From Eubacterium sp. (GTDB lineage Bacteria; Bacillota; Clostridia; Lachnospirales; Lachnospiraceae): a stretch of DNA of 64,000 nucleotides. Positions 36,678 through 50,061 of the stretch are shown here, one piece after another. The stretch lies in assembly GCA_017477505.1 (NCBI GenBank), contig JAFUVQ010000009.1:1-64000 (forward strand), read 5' to 3'. The first letter of the stretch is position 1, and each line of letters starts with the position of its first letter. Under the pieces are notes generated by a model. The model did not search any database and was not told the DNA's origin. It saw nothing but the letters and a program-made list of their open reading frames with translations. The translations under genes and the position numbers were made by a program.

Positions 36678-37913
36678 TTAATCTGCTTCGACTACTGAAG
36701 CATAATATCTTGCACCTTCACGACTTACGTGAGTATCTCTGATTTCCTGTATCTCATCATAGTTTGTAATGAGCATTTCAACCAGGTACCCGAACATGGC
36801 TCCACGCTCCACATTTTCAAGAAGAATCTTTATAACTTCTTCTTTTGAAAGTCCCTGACGGTATGGTCTTATCTCGGCAACGGCAGAGAAGGTATCCGCA
36901 AGTGCGAGTATACGTGCGCCCATAGGAATCTGATCTTTCTTAAGTCGGAACGGATATCCGAATCCGTTCAGCTTCTCATGATGAAGCGCTGCCCACTGGC
37001 TTATATCCTCGAAGCCTTCTATATCCTTCAGGAGAAGGTGCGTATAATATGCATATTCCTTAACTATATTAAACTCGGAATCAGTAAGTTTCTCACTCTT
37101 CTCAAGTATGCTTCTCGGTACCTTAAGCTTGCCTATATCATGAAGATATCCGGCTATCATCATCTTCTTACATTCATCCTGGGACATTCCCATTATCTCG
37201 GCAAGACGAACTGCTGTAGCTGCAACGCCTGAACTGTGCATTGCGGTATACTGACTTCTGAAGTCAATGATACGAGCCATGAACTTCGCAAAAGTTATGG
37301 CAGCATCAAGTGTTACTGTCCTGTCGTCTGAAATGGAATTAAGAATGATCTCCGGCTGATGAAGGAGTTCCATCCAGACATATTCTTTCTCAGAGAATCT
37401 GAGATATGCCTCTACAACATCATCTCCGATAACATCACCGGCCATATCCTGAACCGAATAGCTGATTTCTTCAACCTGGTTTAGAGCAGCATCCTTGGTA
37501 TCGAGCATAAATGCTATCCTGTCTGCAAGGTCTATGATCTCTGCAAATGACTTATATTTATTATCCGCGAAGTCAACCTCTGACTCAGGGTCAGCGACAC
37601 GAAGTACATTTGTAGCATAACGGAGAATCTTGACATCACCCAGGATTCCAAGTCCGGAACCGGCCAGATCCTTGAAATAATACCTCTCTTCATCTTCCTT
37701 CTTCTCAGGCATGAGAACAATTCCCACGTCATAAAGGAAGCTGGTAAATAGTATCTCTTCAAGGTCCTTTCCCTCGAAGCCCATCTCCTTTGCTATATTA
37801 TATGCAATATAAGCAACTCTCTGGTGAAGATTCTCTGTTTCAGGGCGGAGCAGATTCATAGCTTCCGCATATACCCTGGTCAGGTCTCTCATATTAGTAA
37901 ATTGTCTTTCCAT
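36678..37913 (-). CDS. HD-GYP domain protein (cyclic-di-GMP phosphodiesterase)
   Basis: Likely hydrolyses cyclic-di-GMP. The 411-aa soluble protein has an intact C-terminal HD-GYP domain: HSSGVAATAVRLAE, the metal pair in YLHDIGKLKVP, and HHEKLNGFGYP, then ILALADTFSAV. Residues 1-165 form a decayed HD-like half in which the HD pair reads YDVG. GGGGGA lies before the ATG. It neighbours the GGDEF-EAL gene upstream (185 bp away) and has its own terminator. Confidence 0.9.
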   Translation of the reverse strand: MERQFTNMRDLTRVYAEAMNLLRPETENLHQRVAYIAYNIAKEMGFEGKDLEEILFTSFLYDVGIVLMPEKKEDEERYYFKDLAGSGLGILGDVKILRYATNVLRVADPESEVDFADNKYKSFAEIIDLADRIAFMLDTKDAALNQVEEISYSVQDMAGDVIGDDVVEAYLRFSEKEYVWMELLHQPEIILNSISDDRTVTLDAAITFAKFMARIIDFRSQYTAMHSSGVAATAVRLAEIMGMSQDECKKMMIAGYLHDIGKLKVPRSILEKSEKLTDSEFNIVKEYAYYTHLLLKDIEGFEDISQWAALHHEKLNGFGYPFRLKKDQIPMGARILALADTFSAVAEIRPYRQGLSKEEVIKILLENVERGAMFGYLVEMLITNYDEIQEIRDTHVSREGARYYASVVEAD

Positions 37914-38040
37914 AACTGTCCCCCGACTTTCCTTCTCTTTTTATACTCGGAAATATCAGCCATCCGATGCGATGGTTCCTACATAGGAATGACTAAACAC
38001 ACTCTCTATAATAACAGTAATAATCATATTTTTCAAGCAA

Positions 38041-38084
38041 AACGCCACCTGAGGCATCCCCACATATAACGCCATCTGAGGCAT
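38041..38084. repeat. two 17-bp direct repeats after the GGDEF-EAL gene
   Basis: AACGCCACCTGAGGCAT (38041) and AACGCCATCTGAGGCAT (38068) differ at one position. Each contains a short GCC/GGC palindrome; on the minus strand the second is followed by TTTTG, so they may help end the transcript of the 38099-41146 gene. Confidence 0.6.
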
Positions 38085-38098
38085 AACCGTATAGAGCC

Positions 38099-41000
38099 TC
38101 ACTGTTTTACATAGTAGCGGAATGATGGATCAAGTTTCTTCTCAAAATTCATCACAGGAAGAGGTTTATCAAACAGGAATCCCTGTGCGAACTCACAATT
38201 ATTGGAGCGAAGCAGCTCAACCTGTTTTTCAGTCTCAACGCCTTCTACAATACATTCAAGTCCCAGATCTCTTGCCATGGATATAACATGTCTGAACATG
38301 ATATCAGCGGCTTTGTTCGTATCTTCCCCATCGGCAGGAAGAAAACTCCTGTCAACCTTCAGAACATTCCATGGCATATCTCTTATAAGATTCAGTGATG
38401 AGTATCCGACACCGAAATCATCCACTGAAGTATAGATACCGGTTTTCTGGAGACTGTTAACAATTCTCTTCAGATCACTGAACTCCACATCTGTAGTGGT
38501 TTCTGTAAGCTCTACTTCTATAAACTCGTGTGGAATCTCATATCTGTCAACTATCTTTATTATAGTTTCAATAAGATTAATATTGAGCATATGCTTACGG
38601 GAGAAATTAACTGATATACGGACAACTTTTCTGCCCATATCTATCCATCTTCTTATATCCCTGCATACATGGTCAAGCATATAAAAATCCAACTGACATA
38701 TATCATCCGTCTCTTCAAGCATAGGAATGAAATCAGCAGGCGAAACGACCTGTCCATCATGTATCCACCTGCAGAGCGCCTCAGCGCCTGCTATCTCACC
38801 GTTATTGATGTTTACCTTCGGCTGATAATAAACGATAAATTCTTCATTTCTGAAGGCTTCCGGGAAAAGCTGCTGAACACGCATACTCTTCGCCTTACTC
38901 TCATCAAGAGTATCGTCGTAGAAAACCATTCTCTCCCTGCCGCCGCTCTGGGCAACATGATAAGCAGTATTGATCCTCTCCATGATATCACTTGGATCTT
39001 TCAGTATGAAAACATCAGGAATGCAGTAAATCCCTGCACTGGTTGAAATATTTACAGACTTTCCGTTATGTAAATCGTAGACTATCGGTGCCTCCGCAAG
39101 AAAATTAACTATCCTTCCCAGCTGTTCCCCTCCGCATATTGCAACAAAATTATCTCCACCGAGACGGCATATGGTACCTCTGTCACCTATCATCCTCTGG
39201 AGGGTCTCATAATGATTCCGGAGAGTAACATCCCCTACTTTCCTTCCAAGTTCCTGATTGACCAGGGTAAAATGTCTTAGATTGTAACGGAATGCCACTT
39301 TGCCGCCAAGGCGGTTAGCATTTTCCATTATATATTTGAAGAAGCTGCGGAAATTCTCAAATCCGCTATTATCATGAAATGTAAGTTCTTCAACTGCATC
39401 TCTCAGCCTGTTTCTGGTAAGATAGCTGAGTGTCATACGCATCAGGAGTTCTACCCTTGTGTATTCTATAGTAGAAAGCGGCTGTTCATCCTCCGCCATA
39501 TATACCGAGATAGTTCCTATGGACATGACACTGGTTACAGATCTGAGATACATAACTCTCTTATCCTTCTTGCCGGAATCATAACAGCACAGAGTCTCTC
39601 CTGCACCCATAGCCTCTTCTTTAGGATTCTTATAGAGTCTGGCTACACCTTTACTCAGTCTGAAACTTACAGTTATCTCTGCTATGATACTTTCAATGAG
39701 CTTGTAATCAAGATGCTCCATATCCGTCATTGCAGAAACAAGTCTTTCGAAAAGACGATAATAATTAATGGTATCCTTATCAATCAGCTCGTAATCCTTT
39801 TCATACCCGTCATTTATATGTTTCATCCTCCGCTTATTGTCATACATGGCGGTGTCTGCACGTTCAAATACATCCTGTACAATATTATCTATAGAAGGAT
39901 TAAAATCCGACATACCTACTGAAAGGGTAACCTTATTTTCTTTATGATGTTCCGAATTTAAATGATCAAATCTTCCAAGTATTACATTTCTGTCTTCAAA
40001 ATCTTCACCGGTAAGGATTATAGCAAACTCATCACCTCCCACACGGAAGATGTCACTGTTTTTGTATAATGTGCGGAGCATCTCTCCCGCTTCTTTTATG
40101 TATTCATCACCGGCACTATGCCCCTTCGTATCATTTATGATCTTGAGACCGTTGATATCACAGATTACTATAGCAAACTGCTTATTGGTTTCTTCCTCAA
40201 TATCCTTATTGATGATCATCTCAACCTGAGCATAGTTTCTCTTATTCTTAAGTCCGGTGAGTTCGTCATTATTTGCCACATCCAGCGCGGAGTCAAGAAT
40301 ATCCTCAAGCTTCTCTTCCATACGCTTGGATGTATCAATATTTGCAACTGCTATGATAATACGTCTGGAATCCTCCTCAGGAAGAACAGCAAAGAGTGTC
40401 ACATACTGAGGCCGGCCATCAAGGAGCAGTCTGTAATTAAGAATAGCCTTACCGCTATCTTTAAGACTTTCAAGAAGATGTTCTTTCTGCATGGCATAAG
40501 CCATCATAGGATAATCATCTTTGTATATATCATTCTTCATATTCTTCTGGGTATCAGAGAAGAAATCCTTGCCTTTACTGCCAATGTCAAGCTTGGAATA
40601 CTTATCACTGGTACTGAATTCCAGATATTCATTTGTATCAATATCAACCAGATAGATAACCTCATATCTTCTGGCAAGTGCCATAGCTATATCTCCGAAT
40701 CGCCTGGATTCATCCTCCATGGACTTCTCCCTGACCATCTGGGAATCGACATTCAAAACACCCATAAGTATATGATTCTCATCATTTCCCGGATGAACGA
40801 TAAACATATTTACATATTGGAATTTACTGCCCAGAAGCTGTCTGTAGGTGTAAGACAGTGAGCTCTTTTGGGAAAGGTTTTTGATAAGATTCTTCTTCTC
40901 AATCTCTCTAAGAAGCCAGCCGGCATCATCCTGATGAACATATCTTCCAACATCCTTAAAGGCCGATTTAAAGAAATCGTCACCTTTTTTTGTTGTGCCG

Positions 41001-41146
41001 AGCTTTTCATATTCAGAACTTGCACTGTACTGAATATAATTATTTGTAACCATGTCTATATAGTAGATAACCTCATAGCGACTTGCAAGTGCACCCGCAA
41101 TATAGCTATACATATCAATATCATTATCACCCAATCTATCCGCCAT
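38099..41146 (-). CDS. PAS-PAS-GGDEF-GGDEF-EAL cyclic-di-GMP protein
   Basis: A large soluble regulator (1015 aa from the ATG at 41146, chosen for its GGGGG site; the frame opens at 41167). Two related PAS-like sensors repeat the pattern ASRYEVIYYIDMVTNNYIQY / ARRYEVIYLVDIDTNEYLEF. The first GGDEF domain is intact (FRVGGDEFAI). After a GAF-like middle region comes a second, altered cyclase domain (CRLGGDNFVAI). The C-terminal EAL domain has its catalytic residues: AGAEALCRW, NFS, ELTET, DDFGVGYSSL, KVDRSF and EGVET. It may both make and degrade cyclic-di-GMP, with one half regulating the other. No membrane segment. Confidence 0.92.
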   Translation of the reverse strand: MADRLGDNDIDMYSYIAGALASRYEVIYYIDMVTNNYIQYSASSEYEKLGTTKKGDDFFKSAFKDVGRYVHQDDAGWLLREIEKKNLIKNLSQKSSLSYTYRQLLGSKFQYVNMFIVHPGNDENHILMGVLNVDSQMVREKSMEDESRRFGDIAMALARRYEVIYLVDIDTNEYLEFSTSDKYSKLDIGSKGKDFFSDTQKNMKNDIYKDDYPMMAYAMQKEHLLESLKDSGKAILNYRLLLDGRPQYVTLFAVLPEEDSRRIIIAVANIDTSKRMEEKLEDILDSALDVANNDELTGLKNKRNYAQVEMIINKDIEEETNKQFAIVICDINGLKIINDTKGHSAGDEYIKEAGEMLRTLYKNSDIFRVGGDEFAIILTGEDFEDRNVILGRFDHLNSEHHKENKVTLSVGMSDFNPSIDNIVQDVFERADTAMYDNKRRMKHINDGYEKDYELIDKDTINYYRLFERLVSAMTDMEHLDYKLIESIIAEITVSFRLSKGVARLYKNPKEEAMGAGETLCCYDSGKKDKRVMYLRSVTSVMSIGTISVYMAEDEQPLSTIEYTRVELLMRMTLSYLTRNRLRDAVEELTFHDNSGFENFRSFFKYIMENANRLGGKVAFRYNLRHFTLVNQELGRKVGDVTLRNHYETLQRMIGDRGTICRLGGDNFVAICGGEQLGRIVNFLAEAPIVYDLHNGKSVNISTSAGIYCIPDVFILKDPSDIMERINTAYHVAQSGGRERMVFYDDTLDESKAKSMRVQQLFPEAFRNEEFIVYYQPKVNINNGEIAGAEALCRWIHDGQVVSPADFIPMLEETDDICQLDFYMLDHVCRDIRRWIDMGRKVVRISVNFSRKHMLNINLIETIIKIVDRYEIPHEFIEVELTETTTDVEFSDLKRIVNSLQKTGIYTSVDDFGVGYSSLNLIRDMPWNVLKVDRSFLPADGEDTNKAADIMFRHVISMARDLGLECIVEGVETEKQVELLRSNNCEFAQGFLFDKPLPVMNFEKKLDPSFRYYVKQ

Positions 41147-41234
41147 AGTTTTTCCCCCGTTTGTCATAAGTCAGACACATTTATTATACCACCTAAATGC
41201 ATATATTGCATTATTTTTTAAGCTTTATATTTTC

Positions 41235-41288: not shown

Positions 41289-44200
41289 ATGGGGGATAAA
41301 TCACGTTATAAGGGCAAGTCAAACAGAAGGATTGCCCTCCTAACTGCACAGGCTGACGAAACCTATCAGACAGAGTTTATAAGAGGGGTGATGAAAACCG
41401 CCTTTTCCTACGGATATGATGTCTGTGTATTTTCTATGTTCATCAAGTACCAGAACAACAAAGACAGGGAAAAAGGCGAGTCTAATATCTATAATCTCAT
41501 CAACTATGACATGTTTGATGCAGTCATTATCCATTCGGATATTATACAGACACCGGGTATCGTAGAAGAAATTGAGGAAAAGGTCCACAAAGTATTTGGC
41601 GGACCTGTTGTTTGCGTTGATAAAGACAGCAAATATTTCTATAGTTTCTGGACAGACGGATATCCTGCTGTTTATGCTACAATTTCCCATTTTATTGAAG
41701 TACACGGATATAAAGATATAGCATACCTTACCGGCAGACGTAATCATATACACTCCAGGATGCGTCTTGAAGCCTATAAGGATGCCATGAAAGATCACGG
41801 TCTCTCCGTCAGATCCGACAGGATATACTACGGGGATTTCTGGTATTACAGCGGTTCAAGCTGTGCCGAGGATATACTCCGAAGCGGTGATATTCCTGAA
41901 GCTATAGGATGTGCAAATGATCCTATGGCCATAGGTTTTGCAGTCAATATGACTAAACACGGCAAAAGCATTCCTCATGATATTGCCATAGCAGGCTATG
42001 GTACCTCCGAAGAAGGTCAGTCCAGTCCTAAATCTCTCACTTCCACCTATATTCCGGGTGAATACTACGGTTCATTTGCCGTTAAAGCTCTTATCAGACA
42101 AATGAACGGCGAAAAGCCTGAAAAACCTGAACCGGATGCCACACTCTACATAGGCGAAAGCTGTGGCTGTGAAGTGCAATACAGCATGGAGCGAAAAACC
42201 AGAGAGTCCTGGATCACCAAGGATTCTGATGAAAGCTTTGAATCAGTTCATAATTATATGATGGAGAATATGCTCCTTGCAAATAATCTTGATGAGTTCT
42301 TCAGAACAGTTTATGACTCAATTTTCTACATTCATGGAATAAAAAAGATGGAAATCTGTCTTGATCCAAACTGGATGAATGCCGAAACATTGACCGGCAA
42401 TCCATTTTATACAAAGGGATATCCGGAAGTCATGGTAAATGTACTTTCGTATGATGCCGACAACCCCTCTCTTTGCATGATCGATTCCAAAAGATTATTC
42501 CGTACATCCGACTTACTTCCATACTCAAATGATGAGTCATGCAGGGGTTGGTTTTTCCTTCCACTCTTCTATGAAAATAAGTCCTATGGATATGTCATGC
42601 TCAGTTTTGGCACCGAACCAAGGTCTTACGAAAGTGTTGCACGTCTCTGGATGTATGCTGTTTCAAGGGGACTTGAGTCTTTCAGGCGTCATCTTCTTCT
42701 GAAATTCTATTCCGACAAACTGGAACAGATTGCAGCAAACAAGTACGAAGGCAGCGAAACAAAATCCGTTCGTGTTAATAACAATAACCTTTCTGAAGAT
42801 GAACAGAAAGAACTGACAGAGGTTGAAAAGATACTTGACGGTAATCTTCTAAAATATCATTTCCAGCCAATAGTTAATGCTGTCAATGGCGATATTTTCT
42901 CATACGAAGCTCTTATGCGCTCCAACTCCGACATTCCGATTCCGCCTCTCAGCATAATCAAATATGCCTATATGCTGGGGAGACTTAATGACATTGAAAC
43001 AGCCACATTTAAAAATGTACTTAAGATAGTCGGAGAAAGAGACGATATCTTTGATACAAGAAAAGTATTCATAAACAGTATTCCGGGCTGCAAACTGAGT
43101 ACTTCGGACAATGAGTACATCAAAGAACAGCTGTTTCTCAAGGCCGGCAGTGTTGTTGTCGAACTGACAGAAGAAGCCGAACTTTCGGATGAGGATCTCG
43201 ACAGGATCAAGACCAATTACAGAAGCATGGGCATCGACCTTGCAGTCGACGATTACGGCACCGGATATTCAAATGTCAGCAATCTTCTGAGATACATGCC
43301 TGAATATGTAAAGATAGACCGTTCTCTCCTTACTGAGATTCAAAACAGTGATCAGAAACAGCATTTTGTTCGTGAGATCATAGACTTCTGCCATGCCAAC
43401 AATATCAAAGCACTGGCGGAGGGTGTTGAGACCAGAGATGAACTTGCTACGGTTATAAGACTGGGAGCAGACCTTATTCAGGGTTATTATATTGCCCATC
43501 CTGCAGAAAATATCATTACCAGTATAGATGCAAATGTAAGGATGGAGATCAATCGTTTCCATAAAGAACGTGAAGCCGGCACTACTGATGAAGTATTTAT
43601 CGCCGGAAAATCCAGCAGGATTTCTCTTAACAGCATACTTAAAGATAACAAAAAGACTATCATCATAGGTGATTCCGGTTCTACATTCCGTGACATAACC
43701 ATCACCGGTACTCCTAACCATGATACAGGTATTCACCTTGAAATTCTTGAGGGCTATGACGGTCATATTACCCTTGAAAATGTATGTCTTTCAAATGTTA
43801 AGAATCGTCCGTGTATCACCATTGCAGATAATGCAAAGGTGCTGATACGTCTTGAAGGCGAGAATCATTTCAAAGGAAACGGAATCATGGTTCCGAAATC
43901 ATCTTCGCTTACAGTTGAAGGTGATGGTAATCTCAAGATAACTGTTTCCGGCTCTGACGGTTTCGGAATAGGAAATTCAAAGAAAGAAGCCCACGGTACT
44001 ATAGACTTCTATCAGGATGGGGAGATATATATTGAAGCCAACGGACAGATCATGTCCGGTATCGGGTCAGGTCTCGGTGGCATTATAAGGATCAATAAAG
44101 GCAAATATATCATCCGTGTCAGCGGTGAAAAAGGTGTTGCCATAGGTTCCTTCGATTCCTATCATCCTCTTAAAATTCATGATTGTGATATTCTTATAAA

Positions 44201-44630
44201 TAATAATGTTTATGAAGGCGTCTGCATCGGAAGCTTTGACGGCAACTCTGAAGTTGAGATATGGCGTTCACTTGTCAGATGTGAAGGCGGCGGCGGACGT
44301 ACTGCCGTTATCGGAAGCCTTACAGGCAGCAAAGCCTCTGTTACCATGCATGATATGTCCTTCCATGTCTCTGTTCAATCAGATTATTCGACAGCTGTAG
44401 GAAGTCTGTATGGTGCCACTGACTTTACAGTAGAATCTGCTGCCATTACATATATCGGTCACGGTATGAATGCTTATGTTTACGGTGGAAATTCCAATAC
44501 AAAGGTACGTATCGTTAATACCGATGTTAATATTGAGATGGATAATTCCAGGAATCTCATTACTCTTGCACCTGATGAAAATATTGAAGTGGTGAACGGT
44601 CGCAATAAAACTATTTTCATTGAGAAATAA
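41289..44630 (+). CDS. LacI-type sensor fused to EAL phosphodiesterase and a C-terminal beta-helix
   Basis: A 1113-aa protein without signal peptide or membrane helix. Residues about 12-295 are a LacI/GalR-type ligand-binding domain (RRIALLTAQADETYQTEFIRG, GGPVVCVDKD, DIAIAGYGTS) but no DNA-binding helix-turn-helix precedes it. Residues 310-490 form a linker domain of unclear type. An EAL domain follows (about 515-760) with YEALMRS, FINSIPG, VELTEEAE, DDYGTGYSN, KIDRSL and AEGVET, so cyclic-di-GMP hydrolysis is expected. From about 775 to the end, rungs such as GIGSGLGG, AIGSFDS, CIGSFDG and VIGSLTG indicate a parallel beta-helix of the kind usually seen in surface proteins. It is divergent from the GGDEF-EAL gene; AGGAGG precedes the ATG. 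Confidence 0.87.
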   Translation: MGDKSRYKGKSNRRIALLTAQADETYQTEFIRGVMKTAFSYGYDVCVFSMFIKYQNNKDREKGESNIYNLINYDMFDAVIIHSDIIQTPGIVEEIEEKVHKVFGGPVVCVDKDSKYFYSFWTDGYPAVYATISHFIEVHGYKDIAYLTGRRNHIHSRMRLEAYKDAMKDHGLSVRSDRIYYGDFWYYSGSSCAEDILRSGDIPEAIGCANDPMAIGFAVNMTKHGKSIPHDIAIAGYGTSEEGQSSPKSLTSTYIPGEYYGSFAVKALIRQMNGEKPEKPEPDATLYIGESCGCEVQYSMERKTRESWITKDSDESFESVHNYMMENMLLANNLDEFFRTVYDSIFYIHGIKKMEICLDPNWMNAETLTGNPFYTKGYPEVMVNVLSYDADNPSLCMIDSKRLFRTSDLLPYSNDESCRGWFFLPLFYENKSYGYVMLSFGTEPRSYESVARLWMYAVSRGLESFRRHLLLKFYSDKLEQIAANKYEGSETKSVRVNNNNLSEDEQKELTEVEKILDGNLLKYHFQPIVNAVNGDIFSYEALMRSNSDIPIPPLSIIKYAYMLGRLNDIETATFKNVLKIVGERDDIFDTRKVFINSIPGCKLSTSDNEYIKEQLFLKAGSVVVELTEEAELSDEDLDRIKTNYRSMGIDLAVDDYGTGYSNVSNLLRYMPEYVKIDRSLLTEIQNSDQKQHFVREIIDFCHANNIKALAEGVETRDELATVIRLGADLIQGYYIAHPAENIITSIDANVRMEINRFHKEREAGTTDEVFIAGKSSRISLNSILKDNKKTIIIGDSGSTFRDITITGTPNHDTGIHLEILEGYDGHITLENVCLSNVKNRPCITIADNAKVLIRLEGENHFKGNGIMVPKSSSLTVEGDGNLKITVSGSDGFGIGNSKKEAHGTIDFYQDGEIYIEANGQIMSGIGSGLGGIIRINKGKYIIRVSGEKGVAIGSFDSYHPLKIHDCDILINNNVYEGVCIGSFDGNSEVEIWRSLVRCEGGGGRTAVIGSLTGSKASVTMHDMSFHVSVQSDYSTAVGSLYGATDFTVESAAITYIGHGMNAYVYGGNSNTKVRIVNTDVNIEMDNSRNLITLAPDENIEVVNGRNKTIFIEK

Positions 44631-44697
44631 CACCGTCAGCGTGATGAGAAATAATATAAGCAGCACGATTCCGGTTTAATGTATGGAGTTTGTAAAC

Positions 44698-45405
44698 ATG
44701 TACATTCCTGATTTAAAATATACTTTCTATGGCCCGATAGTGCTTTCAGCAATCATCATAGGAATTGTTGTTGCATGTCTTCTGATGGCTAAAGCAGGTG
44801 CTGCAAAAGGCACCTGTTTTTATACTGCCCTGCTTACTTTTGTCATGATTATAATGGTTTCTTTCATGACCTCCATTGCTCTTAATAAAGATATACGGAA
44901 TATAGGATTTGTGGGTGCCGGCGGAGCCCTGGGGCTGATACTCGGAGCTGTCACTTCGGCACTGATTCATAGAGATCATATCACAGAATCCATAGCAGCA
45001 TGGATCACCTCTGCCCCGCTTATGTATGGGCTTTCCAAGATTGCATGCCATATAGCAGGATGCTGCAACGGTATTCCTTACGTTGGGACTCTGGCTGTTA
45101 CATATGAGGCAAAAAATCATGGCAGCTACTTCCCTGTCCAGCTGACTGAAACCGTATGTTTCATTTTTATTTTTATAATCGGGCTTATACTTTATCTTAA
45201 GCTGGAAGATAAAACCAAAGCTGCCATTATCACTTTGTTTCTGTCCGGTATCACCAAAGTCGGTCTGGAATTTCTACGGGAGTCACACATCGGACAGACC
45301 ATATCCAACTATCAGATACTTGTGTTATGCATCACTTTTGCCGGAGCCGCTGCCATACGATATATCAGCCGTATCTCCGCAGGTCAGACGCAATCTCAGG
45401 GATAA
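44698..45405 (+). CDS. prolipoprotein diacylglyceryl transferase-like membrane protein
   Basis: A polytopic membrane protein (235 aa from the ATG at 44698 with GGAG 9 bp upstream; ATG at 44683 is an alternative). The sequence CHIAGCCNGIPY followed by FPVQLTETV resembles the core of Lgt-type enzymes (HxxGCCxG ... RFPxQLYE), which attach diacylglycerol to lipoprotein precursors. Compared with canonical Lgt it is short and lacks the Arg of RFP. It may be a distant Lgt homologue with another lipid-transfer role. It follows the LacI-EAL gene by 67 bp on the same strand. Confidence 0.65.
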   Translation: MYIPDLKYTFYGPIVLSAIIIGIVVACLLMAKAGAAKGTCFYTALLTFVMIIMVSFMTSIALNKDIRNIGFVGAGGALGLILGAVTSALIHRDHITESIAAWITSAPLMYGLSKIACHIAGCCNGIPYVGTLAVTYEAKNHGSYFPVQLTETVCFIFIFIIGLILYLKLEDKTKAAIITLFLSGITKVGLEFLRESHIGQTISNYQILVLCITFAGAAAIRYISRISAGQTQSQG

Positions 45406-47430: not shown

Positions 47431-47620
47431 GTGCCTGTCACTTAACAGTTTGTACATACTTATACTGTGGCCCGGTGACGGCCCGGTGACAGGCACTTAA
47501 CAGTTTGTTCACTCATACACCGCGGTGTTATGCGGGGTTCCGCCACCGCGGTGACAGGCACTTAATAGTTTGTTCATATTTAGTGTGGTGCTGGCGGTGA
47601 CAGGCACTTAACAGTTTGTT
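47431..47620. repeat. four-core repeat element A
   Basis: Four copies of the 11-bp core GTGCCTGTCAC or its complement start at 47431, 47486, 47551 and 47597 (spacing 55, 65, 46). The first is inverted relative to the other three, and each is followed by TTAACAGTTTGTT or a close variant. An ACCGCGG-type palindrome lies before the third core. The last unit supplies the stop codon and last codons of the SLH gene at 47608. Confidence 0.9.
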
Positions 47621-50061
47621 AAATTATGGTAGCGCATTATAAGTATTGCGCATTGCAGTCTGCCGGCGTTTCTGTTCGGGTAGATATATGTGAGGCCGTC
47701 TTTTGTGACTCCTGTCATTATGCCGTCTCCTATGATCCAACTGAGGCCCGCTTCTGTGTTTTCTCTGACTGTATCGTAGTCTGCGAAGCTGCTGAGGTCT
47801 GCTGTTGCTGATGTTTCGTAGCCGGCGATATCTGCATAACGCTGCAGCATTATTGCTATCTGTGCGCGGGTTATGTTTTTGGCAGGCTTAAATGTTCCAT
47901 TTTCAAATCCGCTTATTATTCCTATGCCGGCAGCCCACTCTACTGCCTCGTATCCTGTATCACCTTCTGTTATATCTGAAAAATGTATTGTTTCTGTTTC
48001 AATTCCTTTTTCTAAAACTCCTTCTGCCTCTGCAAGTTTATATAGCATTATCGCAAACTGTGCTCTGGTCACGCTGTTCGACGGCTTGAACTTAACCTGT
48101 CCGTTTTCGTCAGGCTTTGTAACTCCGCTGACTACTCCCAGGTCATAAGCCTGTTTCAGTAGATCGGCTCCGGTTGAATCTTTCTCCACGTCGCTGAAAG
48201 GCCAGATCTCATCATCCGTATCATCGTCTTCATTTCCATAATCATTTGCAACAGAAGTAATCTTAGGAATAGTCTGTGTTTTTGTTGTGCCGCAGACAGT
48301 GCATGTGTATGTCATAACACCGGTGCTTTCAGCCGTGGCCGGAACTGTTACTGCAGATGTCCATGTATGGCTGTTACAGCCGCCGGTTCCACAGTCTGAA
48401 ACTGCATTGTTTGTAAATGAACAGGATTTATCTGCCGGTATATAGAAAAGATAATTCACATTTTTAGGTGATGTCGCACTGTAAATTACATTTCCATTTC
48501 CATCTTTAACATATATAGGCGAACCTTTCTGATATGTTGATGTCGAGTAAATGTAACTTGAGTTTGTACTTACTTCATTATGGATGTAACCGTCAACACC
48601 TTTGGTGCCACCTGCAAATACATTTGCATTATTTATAGTAATTGTCCCGTCAAAATCCAGCGGTGAATTGTCTCCGCCTGCTCTCATGCCCCACACTTCC
48701 ACATTTCCGCCGGAAATGTTTATATTTCCATTTGCATCAATACCATCACCCTCGACATTTATGTAAATATTACCTCCATAGATATTTATGTGATAATTTC
48801 CGCCACCTCCGGGTGTAAAACCTCCGCCTCCCGGGCCAGGTCTGAAGCTGTTTCCGCCACCCTGCATAGGATCGGTTCCGCTGGAACTTCCGCCTGCAGA
48901 GTTGATGCCATCATCATTTCCAACTATGATCATAGTTCCTGAATATGTATTGACAGTGCCGCCCTCAAGTCCTTCGTAGCAATACTTGATATCGATGTAA
49001 GGATCCATATCAAGACCGCCTTCCGACCCGATGTTCAAAGTTGTATCAGCATGCGCACCGTCATCACCGGTATAAATTGTAAATGTACCGCCTGTTATAT
49101 CCGCATACGCGTCAGAATGTATTGCATCATCAGGTGTATTGATTGTAAATGTACCGCCTGATACAGTAAGTCTGCTTTCAATACCCTCAAGATTTCCGGC
49201 AGATGCCTTGAGACCTTTGCAGCTCATGGTATCGCTACTAAACTGCGTATCGTTGTAACCATTCATGGAAATGATATTAAAACTTCCATTTGTAATATTA
49301 AGATCCCTGGCAGCTGAAATACCGTCGCCCTGTGCATTTATATCAATAGAACCGCCATTGATATAGATAGCGCCTGCACTCTCAGTATCATCAGCATCAG
49401 GATCAGACTTCATGCCATCCCCGGATGATACAATATCAATATTTCCAGCATTAACAGTAAGCGTACCGTCGCAGGCAATGCCCGTATTGGCAGCATTTAC
49501 ATTTAAATGAGCCCCGTTGACATTAATACCCGACGTTGCTCCGCCTTTGATACCATTCTTACACGAGGACGCATCAATATTAAGCGTACCGCTGCCGCTT
49601 ACGGTAAGATTCGAAGCGCTTTTTACCTTAATTGCAGCCCCCTCAAAAGCGTCAGCAATTTCCTCATCCGAACTGTTTTCATTTTCAGGATTTTCCGCAC
49701 TTATAAGAGTACAGTCACCCTGGACCAGAAGCAACAGACTCGAACCCTTCTTTACCACAACAGGAGCGGTAAGCTCCGACTTAAGATAGAAATCACACAT
49801 GTACAGAGTGACCGAAATTCCTTTGGCAATTTCAATATTACCTTCGCTGCAGCTTCCGGTCACAGTATAAGTACCGCTCTCCTTAATCGTAAGAGTTGTA
49901 CCGTTTACAGAAAAACCACCCTCTTCGGAAAAAGAAATACCGGAATCCGAAAAAGAGATAACAACCCCTTCAGCCGCATAACATCTGCTGCCAAACAGCC
50001 CCACAACAAGCGCCGCAGAAAACAAAAACAAGATCAACAGTTTCAATCCTCTACCAAACAT
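47608..50061 (-). CDS. S-layer-anchored carbohydrate-binding-type beta-helix protein with SLH domains
   Basis: The 817-aa exported protein starts with a signal peptide (LKLLILFLFSAALVVGLFGSRCYA). Residues about 40-500 repeat short beta-rungs (INGGSIDINAQGDGISA, GGTFTIYTGDDGAHAD, INISGGNVEVWG) with aspartate/glycine turns, as in the Cthe_2159-type cellulose/pectin-binding beta-helix. A glycine-rich loop (RPGPGGGGFTPGGGG) interrupts it. A Cys-containing segment (CTVCGTTKTQTI) follows, then three SLH repeats from about 615 (IWPFSDVEKDS, VTRAQFAIMLYKLAEAEG, ITRAQIAIMLQRYADIAG, RLQCAILIMRYHNL) that bind cell-wall polymers. Its leader hides the ribosome site in a hairpin, and its stop lies inside repeat element A. 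Confidence 0.88.
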   Translation of the reverse strand: MFGRGLKLLILFLFSAALVVGLFGSRCYAAEGVVISFSDSGISFSEEGGFSVNGTTLTIKESGTYTVTGSCSEGNIEIAKGISVTLYMCDFYLKSELTAPVVVKKGSSLLLLVQGDCTLISAENPENENSSDEEIADAFEGAAIKVKSASNLTVSGSGTLNIDASSCKNGIKGGATSGINVNGAHLNVNAANTGIACDGTLTVNAGNIDIVSSGDGMKSDPDADDTESAGAIYINGGSIDINAQGDGISAARDLNITNGSFNIISMNGYNDTQFSSDTMSCKGLKASAGNLEGIESRLTVSGGTFTINTPDDAIHSDAYADITGGTFTIYTGDDGAHADTTLNIGSEGGLDMDPYIDIKYCYEGLEGGTVNTYSGTMIIVGNDDGINSAGGSSSGTDPMQGGGNSFRPGPGGGGFTPGGGGNYHINIYGGNIYINVEGDGIDANGNINISGGNVEVWGMRAGGDNSPLDFDGTITINNANVFAGGTKGVDGYIHNEVSTNSSYIYSTSTYQKGSPIYVKDGNGNVIYSATSPKNVNYLFYIPADKSCSFTNNAVSDCGTGGCNSHTWTSAVTVPATAESTGVMTYTCTVCGTTKTQTIPKITSVANDYGNEDDDTDDEIWPFSDVEKDSTGADLLKQAYDLGVVSGVTKPDENGQVKFKPSNSVTRAQFAIMLYKLAEAEGVLEKGIETETIHFSDITEGDTGYEAVEWAAGIGIISGFENGTFKPAKNITRAQIAIMLQRYADIAGYETSATADLSSFADYDTVRENTEAGLSWIIGDGIMTGVTKDGLTYIYPNRNAGRLQCAILIMRYHNLTNC

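Follow-up and report, generated by a model that had tools for sequence, protein, structure and literature searches.

Why should a cytoplasmic enzyme of cyclic-di-GMP (c-di-GMP) turnover end in a glycine-rich beta-helix of the kind carried by exported proteins? The question is raised by a gene at positions 41289-44630 (+ strand) of a 64,000-nucleotide stretch of Eubacterium sp. DNA (contig JAFUVQ010000009.1, positions 1 to 64,000; hereafter the window), whose open reading frame (ORF), with ATG start and stop both inside these coordinates, encodes 1113 amino acids. An earlier note had described a LacI-type sensor, an EAL domain and a beta-helix in this one protein and had taken them for a glycan-recognition module; the observation was confirmed, while the interpretation was supported only in part. 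The main addition is that the EAL domain and beta-helix together form, on the evidence of related genes, a conserved unit reused behind many sensors. The protein is read here, with a probability of roughly 0.55, as a soluble cytoplasmic c-di-GMP phosphodiesterase that would be switched by a small molecule and would carry the beta-helix as a rigid docking or scaffold arm, a reading that draws on sequence and on structure models. Its parts are as follows.

41289-44630, + strand: full gene, 1113-residue protein with LacI-type ligand-binding domain, middle domain, EAL domain and beta-helix (ORF, Pfam, model).
41325-42170, + strand: residues 13-294, LacI-type (Peripla_BP) ligand-binding domain without helix-turn-helix (Pfam, PDB matches, conserved loops).
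42246-42698, + strand: residues 320-470, middle domain whose order of secondary-structure elements resembles GAF, continuing into a long helix at residues 449-484 (model, weak GAF_2).
42795-43508, + strand: residues 503-740, EAL domain (c-di-GMP phosphodiesterase), active site complete (Pfam, invariant catalytic residues).
43509-43685, + strand: residues 741-799, connection of fixed length (helix 748-763), then the cap at the N-terminal end of the beta-helix (spacing, model).
43686-44627, + strand: residues 800-1113, right-handed beta-helix (models, fold search, motif spacing, conservation).

An EAL domain lay directly in front of the beta-helix in all 76 ORFs that scored above 60 bits against the beta-helix profile (75 distinct at 95% identity; L114 duplicates L003, and L085 is the gene under study, truncated at its start). 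The spacing between the two domains was 26 residues in 61 of these ORFs, 27 in 9 and 25 in 6. Loci L005-L084 (at least 80) were found by EAL patterns in a scan of named genomes, and EAL is present there by construction. The remaining test was independent of EAL: 27 of the 76 ORFs (L085-L102 and L114-L122, two of them from the window's own genome), being those above 60 bits with DNA retrieved from the family and class whole-genome searches, were found by the beta-helix profile alone, and 27/27 had EAL in front. Strong matches in the whole-genome searches (E < 1e-60) occurred at 24 places in 17 of 299 genomes of the family, at 17 places in 13 of 391 genomes of the class and in 3 of 398 genomes of the phylum, these draws overlapping and each including the window's own genome; every strong place sat in an open frame of at least 704 amino acids. 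When the beta-helix of the R. flavefaciens protein was used as the query, the best 120 of 354 matches were all labelled EAL. Free-standing forms may exist; among at least 28 matches listed from a profile search of short proteins (E ≤ 0.001), 24 carried EAL and 4 were without it: P0126 (on a 1058-base contig), P0140 (named partial), P0146 and P0148.

What precedes the unit varied. The heads were LacI-type (proteins of about 1110 amino acids), LacI-type plus GGDEF (L023, L028, L033, L039), a GNAT acetyltransferase (L040), GGDEF with membrane segments (L046), other membrane-anchored heads (L044, L052, L054, L057) and short heads (L020, L027). The proposal that beta-helix and sugar sensor form one recognition module was thus not supported, as the beta-helix is tied to EAL and is found also behind heads that are not LacI-type. 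Named relatives with the beta-helix came from Lachnospiraceae, Eubacterium, Ruminococcus, Ruminiclostridium, Acetatifactor, Oscillospiraceae and other Clostridia, by title largely metagenome bins from rumen or other herbivore gut, together with Ruminococcus albus 8 and R. flavefaciens Y1. In R. albus 8 (L051:4044-9205), a gene for EAL and beta-helix is followed after 17 nt by one for LacI-type domain and GGDEF, a possible opposing pair.

The complete architecture, for which a search had been suggested, was found in two further genes of the same genome (53 and 47% identical to the window protein) and in 120 listed homologues. The latter, the best 120 of 1912 (E ≤ 0.001), were 1073-1135 amino acids long, 95 to 44% identical over 95-100% of the query, and all labelled by Pfam with the ligand-binding domain and EAL. 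An assembly error or chance fusion of the beta-helix was ruled out by the paralogs, these homologues and the EAL-linked beta-helix ORFs. No EAL-beta-helix protein was met in the literature as seen through titles and the starts of abstracts, with thin coverage of subscription journals.

Pfam called Peripla_BP_3 at residues 134-292 (74.3 bits, cut-off 26.5), Peripla_BP_1 at 14-232 (56.6 bits, cut-off 22.2) and EAL at 516-738 (171.6 bits, cut-off 31.3); Peripla_BP_4 reached 27.5 bits, below its cut-off of 35.1, and up to E 1 there was no match in residues 300-510 or beyond 740. An AlphaFold2 model of the full protein (90 sequences) had a mean predicted local distance difference test score (pLDDT) of 88.1 and a predicted template modelling score (pTM) of 0.64.

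The EAL domain is predicted to hydrolyze c-di-GMP. The metal- and substrate-binding residues of such domains are E-A-L, N, E-x-x-E, D-D, K, E-x-x-E and Q; the corresponding E540, N596, E625, E628, D654, D655, K675, E711, E714 and Q731 were invariant in 121/121 rows of the alignment, and the active-site residues were intact in 49/49 beta-helix rows of the wider set. The domain is complete, as had been claimed, and a degenerate or inactive EAL was ruled out.

The LacI-type ligand-binding domain likewise held up in Pfam and in alignments as a cytoplasmic sensor without DNA-binding part, joined to this EAL domain. The LacI helix-turn-helix (PF00356) was not called up to E 1 in the 1113-residue protein, whose first modelled strand begins at residue 13. 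Against PDB, the sensor matched 62 distinct sequences at E ≤ 0.001, the best being CcpA (2.8e-18). The domain ends in a conserved G-E-S-C-G-C motif, and Q55, D84, Q87, H153, H155, R159, D183, W185, Y186 and N210 were invariant in 121/121 rows; presumably they lie in pocket-lining loops, judging from LacI-type structures and the PDB alignments. Judged by this alignment, the sensor is under selection. Since the EAL domain attached to such a sensor has its full catalytic set, control of c-di-GMP hydrolysis by a small molecule is the natural reading.

The suggestion that the ligand is probably a sugar fared less well. The Asp of the sugar pocket, D274 in LacI, is Asp in RbsR also; at this position of the sensor, 238, Gly stood in 101/121 rows and Asp in 19/121, G238 being assigned via Y237, the final residue of the RbsR alignment block, after which the next RbsR residue is Asp. 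The ligand therefore need not be a free sugar. Upstream of the paralog L004, at a distance of 18 nt, is a LacI repressor gene that adjoins a galactokinase gene; this is a hint of a sugar ligand, not a proof.

Between sensor and EAL, the AlphaFold2 model placed a domain at about residues 320-470 with the long helix 449-484, which the earlier note had overlooked. Weak GAF_2 matches came from 3 of 11 members (best E 0.055), and the middle domain had no match in PDB up to E 10.

The beta-helix itself is a prediction, and very probably a correct one. Residues 801-1100 were modelled as strands in the full protein (block-mean pLDDT 85-97), and the domain modelled alone (residues 766-1113, 23 sequences) reached pLDDT 94.7 and pTM 0.92, in agreement with the glycine-rich C-terminal fold that had been read from the sequence. 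The helix is right-handed, and seven x-I-G-S-like turns recur along it at intervals of 27-31 residues. A profile search of PDB returned 4peu (E 0.02) and 5mkd (E 0.48, at chance level), and PHROGs gave a single weak baseplate match (E 0.0013), taken as generic beta-helix. Bactofilin, a family of cytoplasmic beta-helix polymers, had no Pfam match up to E 1 in the 1113-residue protein.

This beta-helix is most likely cytoplasmic. EAL domains act on a cytoplasmic nucleotide, which would place on the same side a beta-helix that follows EAL. The window protein has no hydrophobic segment (highest 19-residue Kyte-Doolittle mean 1.10) and no hydrophobic N-terminus, consistent with the reported lack of a signal peptide. 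Among 52 ORFs with complete starts, membrane-like windows preceded EAL in seven, five clear (L044, L046, L052, L054, L057) and two single and interior (L015, L033); one of the 52, L060, had a single membrane-like window after EAL, late in the protein. An exported protein was ruled out by the missing hydrophobic stretch and by the membrane-anchored relatives, which place the beta-helix inside.

Under the favored reading, a ligand in the cytoplasm would close the LacI-type domain, and this movement would be relayed to an EAL dimer by the middle domain and the long helix, setting the rate of c-di-GMP cleavage. The beta-helix would be a rigid arm at fixed distance from EAL; itself neither enzyme nor glycan sensor, it would offer a docking or scaffold surface by which the phosphodiesterase is positioned within the cell. 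Identities among the three paralogs were 59/50/49% in the proximal half of the beta-helix, 42/29/30% in the distal half and 61/60/59% in the sensor, and over 121 rows the proximal half was conserved nearly to sensor level and the distal half was variable; this is in keeping with a rigid arm that contacts different partners through its outer half. Were the beta-helix such a docking arm, that would help to explain how many such enzymes act separately in one cell. A broader proposal, which we would put somewhat short of even, is that EAL and beta-helix may mark a c-di-GMP phosphodiesterase class of their own, belonging to gut Clostridia: a surface beta-helix turned inward would act as a cytoplasmic control or docking domain, and a single two-domain output module would serve many sensors. 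If so, one kind of site-specific c-di-GMP removal could obey many signals.

Several points weigh against the docking arm. The role was picked largely by exclusion, and no shared neighbor gene or operon partner was seen by eye in 13 loci. At pTM 0.64 the packing of the domains is uncertain. At 90% conservation, ten polar beta-helix positions in the LacI-type group (D802, Y823, T828, E830, N831, N859, N896, Q909, Y940, D1079) leave room for a binding site there. Finally, 14 beta-helix-free EAL proteins with intact EAL sites nest among those with the beta-helix. This was seen in a tree of 85 EAL domains, made by a quick method with 23/82 branches starred and omitting L001, L002, loci above L084 and EAL stretches shorter than 190 residues: 49 beta-helix rows and the 14 beta-helix-free rows were united in a single group of 63 (support 94, unstarred), and the beta-helix label needs 7 changes, at least 4 of them forced by starred branches. 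Such counts cannot separate gain from loss; loss would be the easier reading, because in three EAL proteins (L030, L036, L103) the beta-helix stops after about 115 residues.

Ranked second to docking, and unlikely, is that the beta-helix is a structural clamp: packed against EAL or the other subunit of the dimer, it would keep the active state in place or pass it on, and would need no partner beyond the enzyme. The spacing of 25-27 residues in 76/76 ORFs would suit a clamp, as would the better conservation of the proximal half among the three paralogs and the retention of about the first 115 residues in the three C-terminal truncations. Set against these are the relatives in the same group that have intact EAL sites and no beta-helix, and a packing that the model does not establish.

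Recognition of an intracellular polysaccharide or oligosaccharide (for example glycogen or a capsule precursor) that is reported to EAL, as the earlier note proposed, is ranked third and appears doubtful. Positive support for it was not found: among columns conserved at 97% or more in the 121 rows, 1/28 was polar in the beta-helix (800-1110), against 20/45 in the sensor and 39/79 in EAL, and across 30 diverse beta-helices N859 was the sole polar position within 800-1113 to reach 24/30. In these alignments no catalytic or binding site stands out, although a variable one may exist. The same beta-helix occurs behind heads without a link to sugar, most other copies examined adjoin unlike genes, and the polysaccharide-binding family PF14262 had no match up to E 1 in the 1113-residue protein. 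With so few conserved polar residues, the beta-helix is also unlikely to be an enzyme.

That the beta-helix is a decaying, functionless passenger, a surface-protein domain fused by accident, can be set aside as highly improbable, for although the truncated and beta-helix-free relatives and the variable distal half would fit decay, the 120 listed homologues align over 95-100% of the query down to 44% identity, the proximal half is close to the sensor in conservation in 121 rows (somewhat lower among the paralogs), and in the tree the beta-helix was kept in 17/17 LacI-type proteins with a short stretch before EAL, compared with 9/21 of those with a stretch of GGDEF length, a class defined by length and not by a GGDEF match.

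The docking arm was probably acquired from exported beta-helix proteins of Clostridia, and the kinship to such proteins that had been suggested was upheld by profile matches. The beta-helix profile matched four places in one 2477-residue open frame of another Clostridia genome (E 1.5e-17 to 2.5e-14). From its first start codon (L123:1760-9184, - strand), this frame encodes 2474 residues with repeated G-I-G-G-G beta-helix units and, by eye, a signal-peptide-like stretch at its start; scanned alone, it gave six profile matches, mainly to the proximal half. Near the gene, the 817-residue SLH protein (47608-50061, - strand) proved to have the related fold ascribed to it: it matched PF14262 (Cthe_2159) at 170.5 bits, and comparison of its beta-helix with the EAL-linked profile gave a probability of 88.7% (E 2.6e-6). 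It is a more distant relative than L123. One distant relative, L061, reached 18.7 bits to PF14262, below the cut-off of 25.8. Among the weak whole-genome matches, L104, L107, L108, L109, L111, L112 and L123 had a hydrophobic, signal-like start by eye, and the starts of L105, L106, L110 and L113 lay beyond the retrieved DNA. With L123 and the SLH protein as relatives, the beta-helix appears to be a domain type of exported Clostridia proteins taken inside the cell.

The surroundings are rich in the same second messenger. Beside the gene, 36678-41167 (- strand) is a small c-di-GMP gene cluster, comprising an HD-domain protein (36678-37913; HD_5, 130.9 bits, possibly HD-GYP) and a divergent protein (38099-41167) with two GGDEF stretches and EAL. 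Just downstream (44683-45405, + strand) lies a 240-residue Lgt-like protein, possibly a divergent lipoprotein transferase paralog (Pfam LGT 40 bits, above cut-off and far below the NCBIfam lgt cut-offs). The genome has 17 EAL places, 36 GGDEF places (one below cut-off) and 1 flagellin, with no PilZ match; from the EAL and GGDEF counts, its predicted c-di-GMP network is rich. No c-di-GMP riboswitch was found at gathering scores in the window, L003 or L004. A review (PMC8846402) states that some c-di-GMP proteins contain LacI-type ligand-binding domains, which may bind sugars, and that only one domain of the wider binding-protein clan had been studied in c-di-GMP networks. Three paralogs of the same architecture with conserved sensors in one genome make a testable case.

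Compared with known systems, the protein shares with the LacI/GalR regulators (CcpA, RbsR, LacI) the Peripla_BP domain, here CcpA-like, and differs in having no helix-turn-helix, Gly in place of the Asp of RbsR, and an enzyme as output. It shares its beta-helix fold with Cthe_2159 (PF14262) of C. thermocellum, which is polysaccharide-binding and exported, whereas the window beta-helix is probably cytoplasmic and follows EAL in all ORFs examined. The proximal beta-helix resembles the exported-type L123 in register (E down to 1.5e-17), but L123 has a signal-like start, repeated units and no signaling domain seen. From EAL phosphodiesterases with N-terminal sensors, such as DosP, Bd1971 and PA0575, the window protein differs by its cytoplasmic LacI-type sensor and by the beta-helix that follows EAL.
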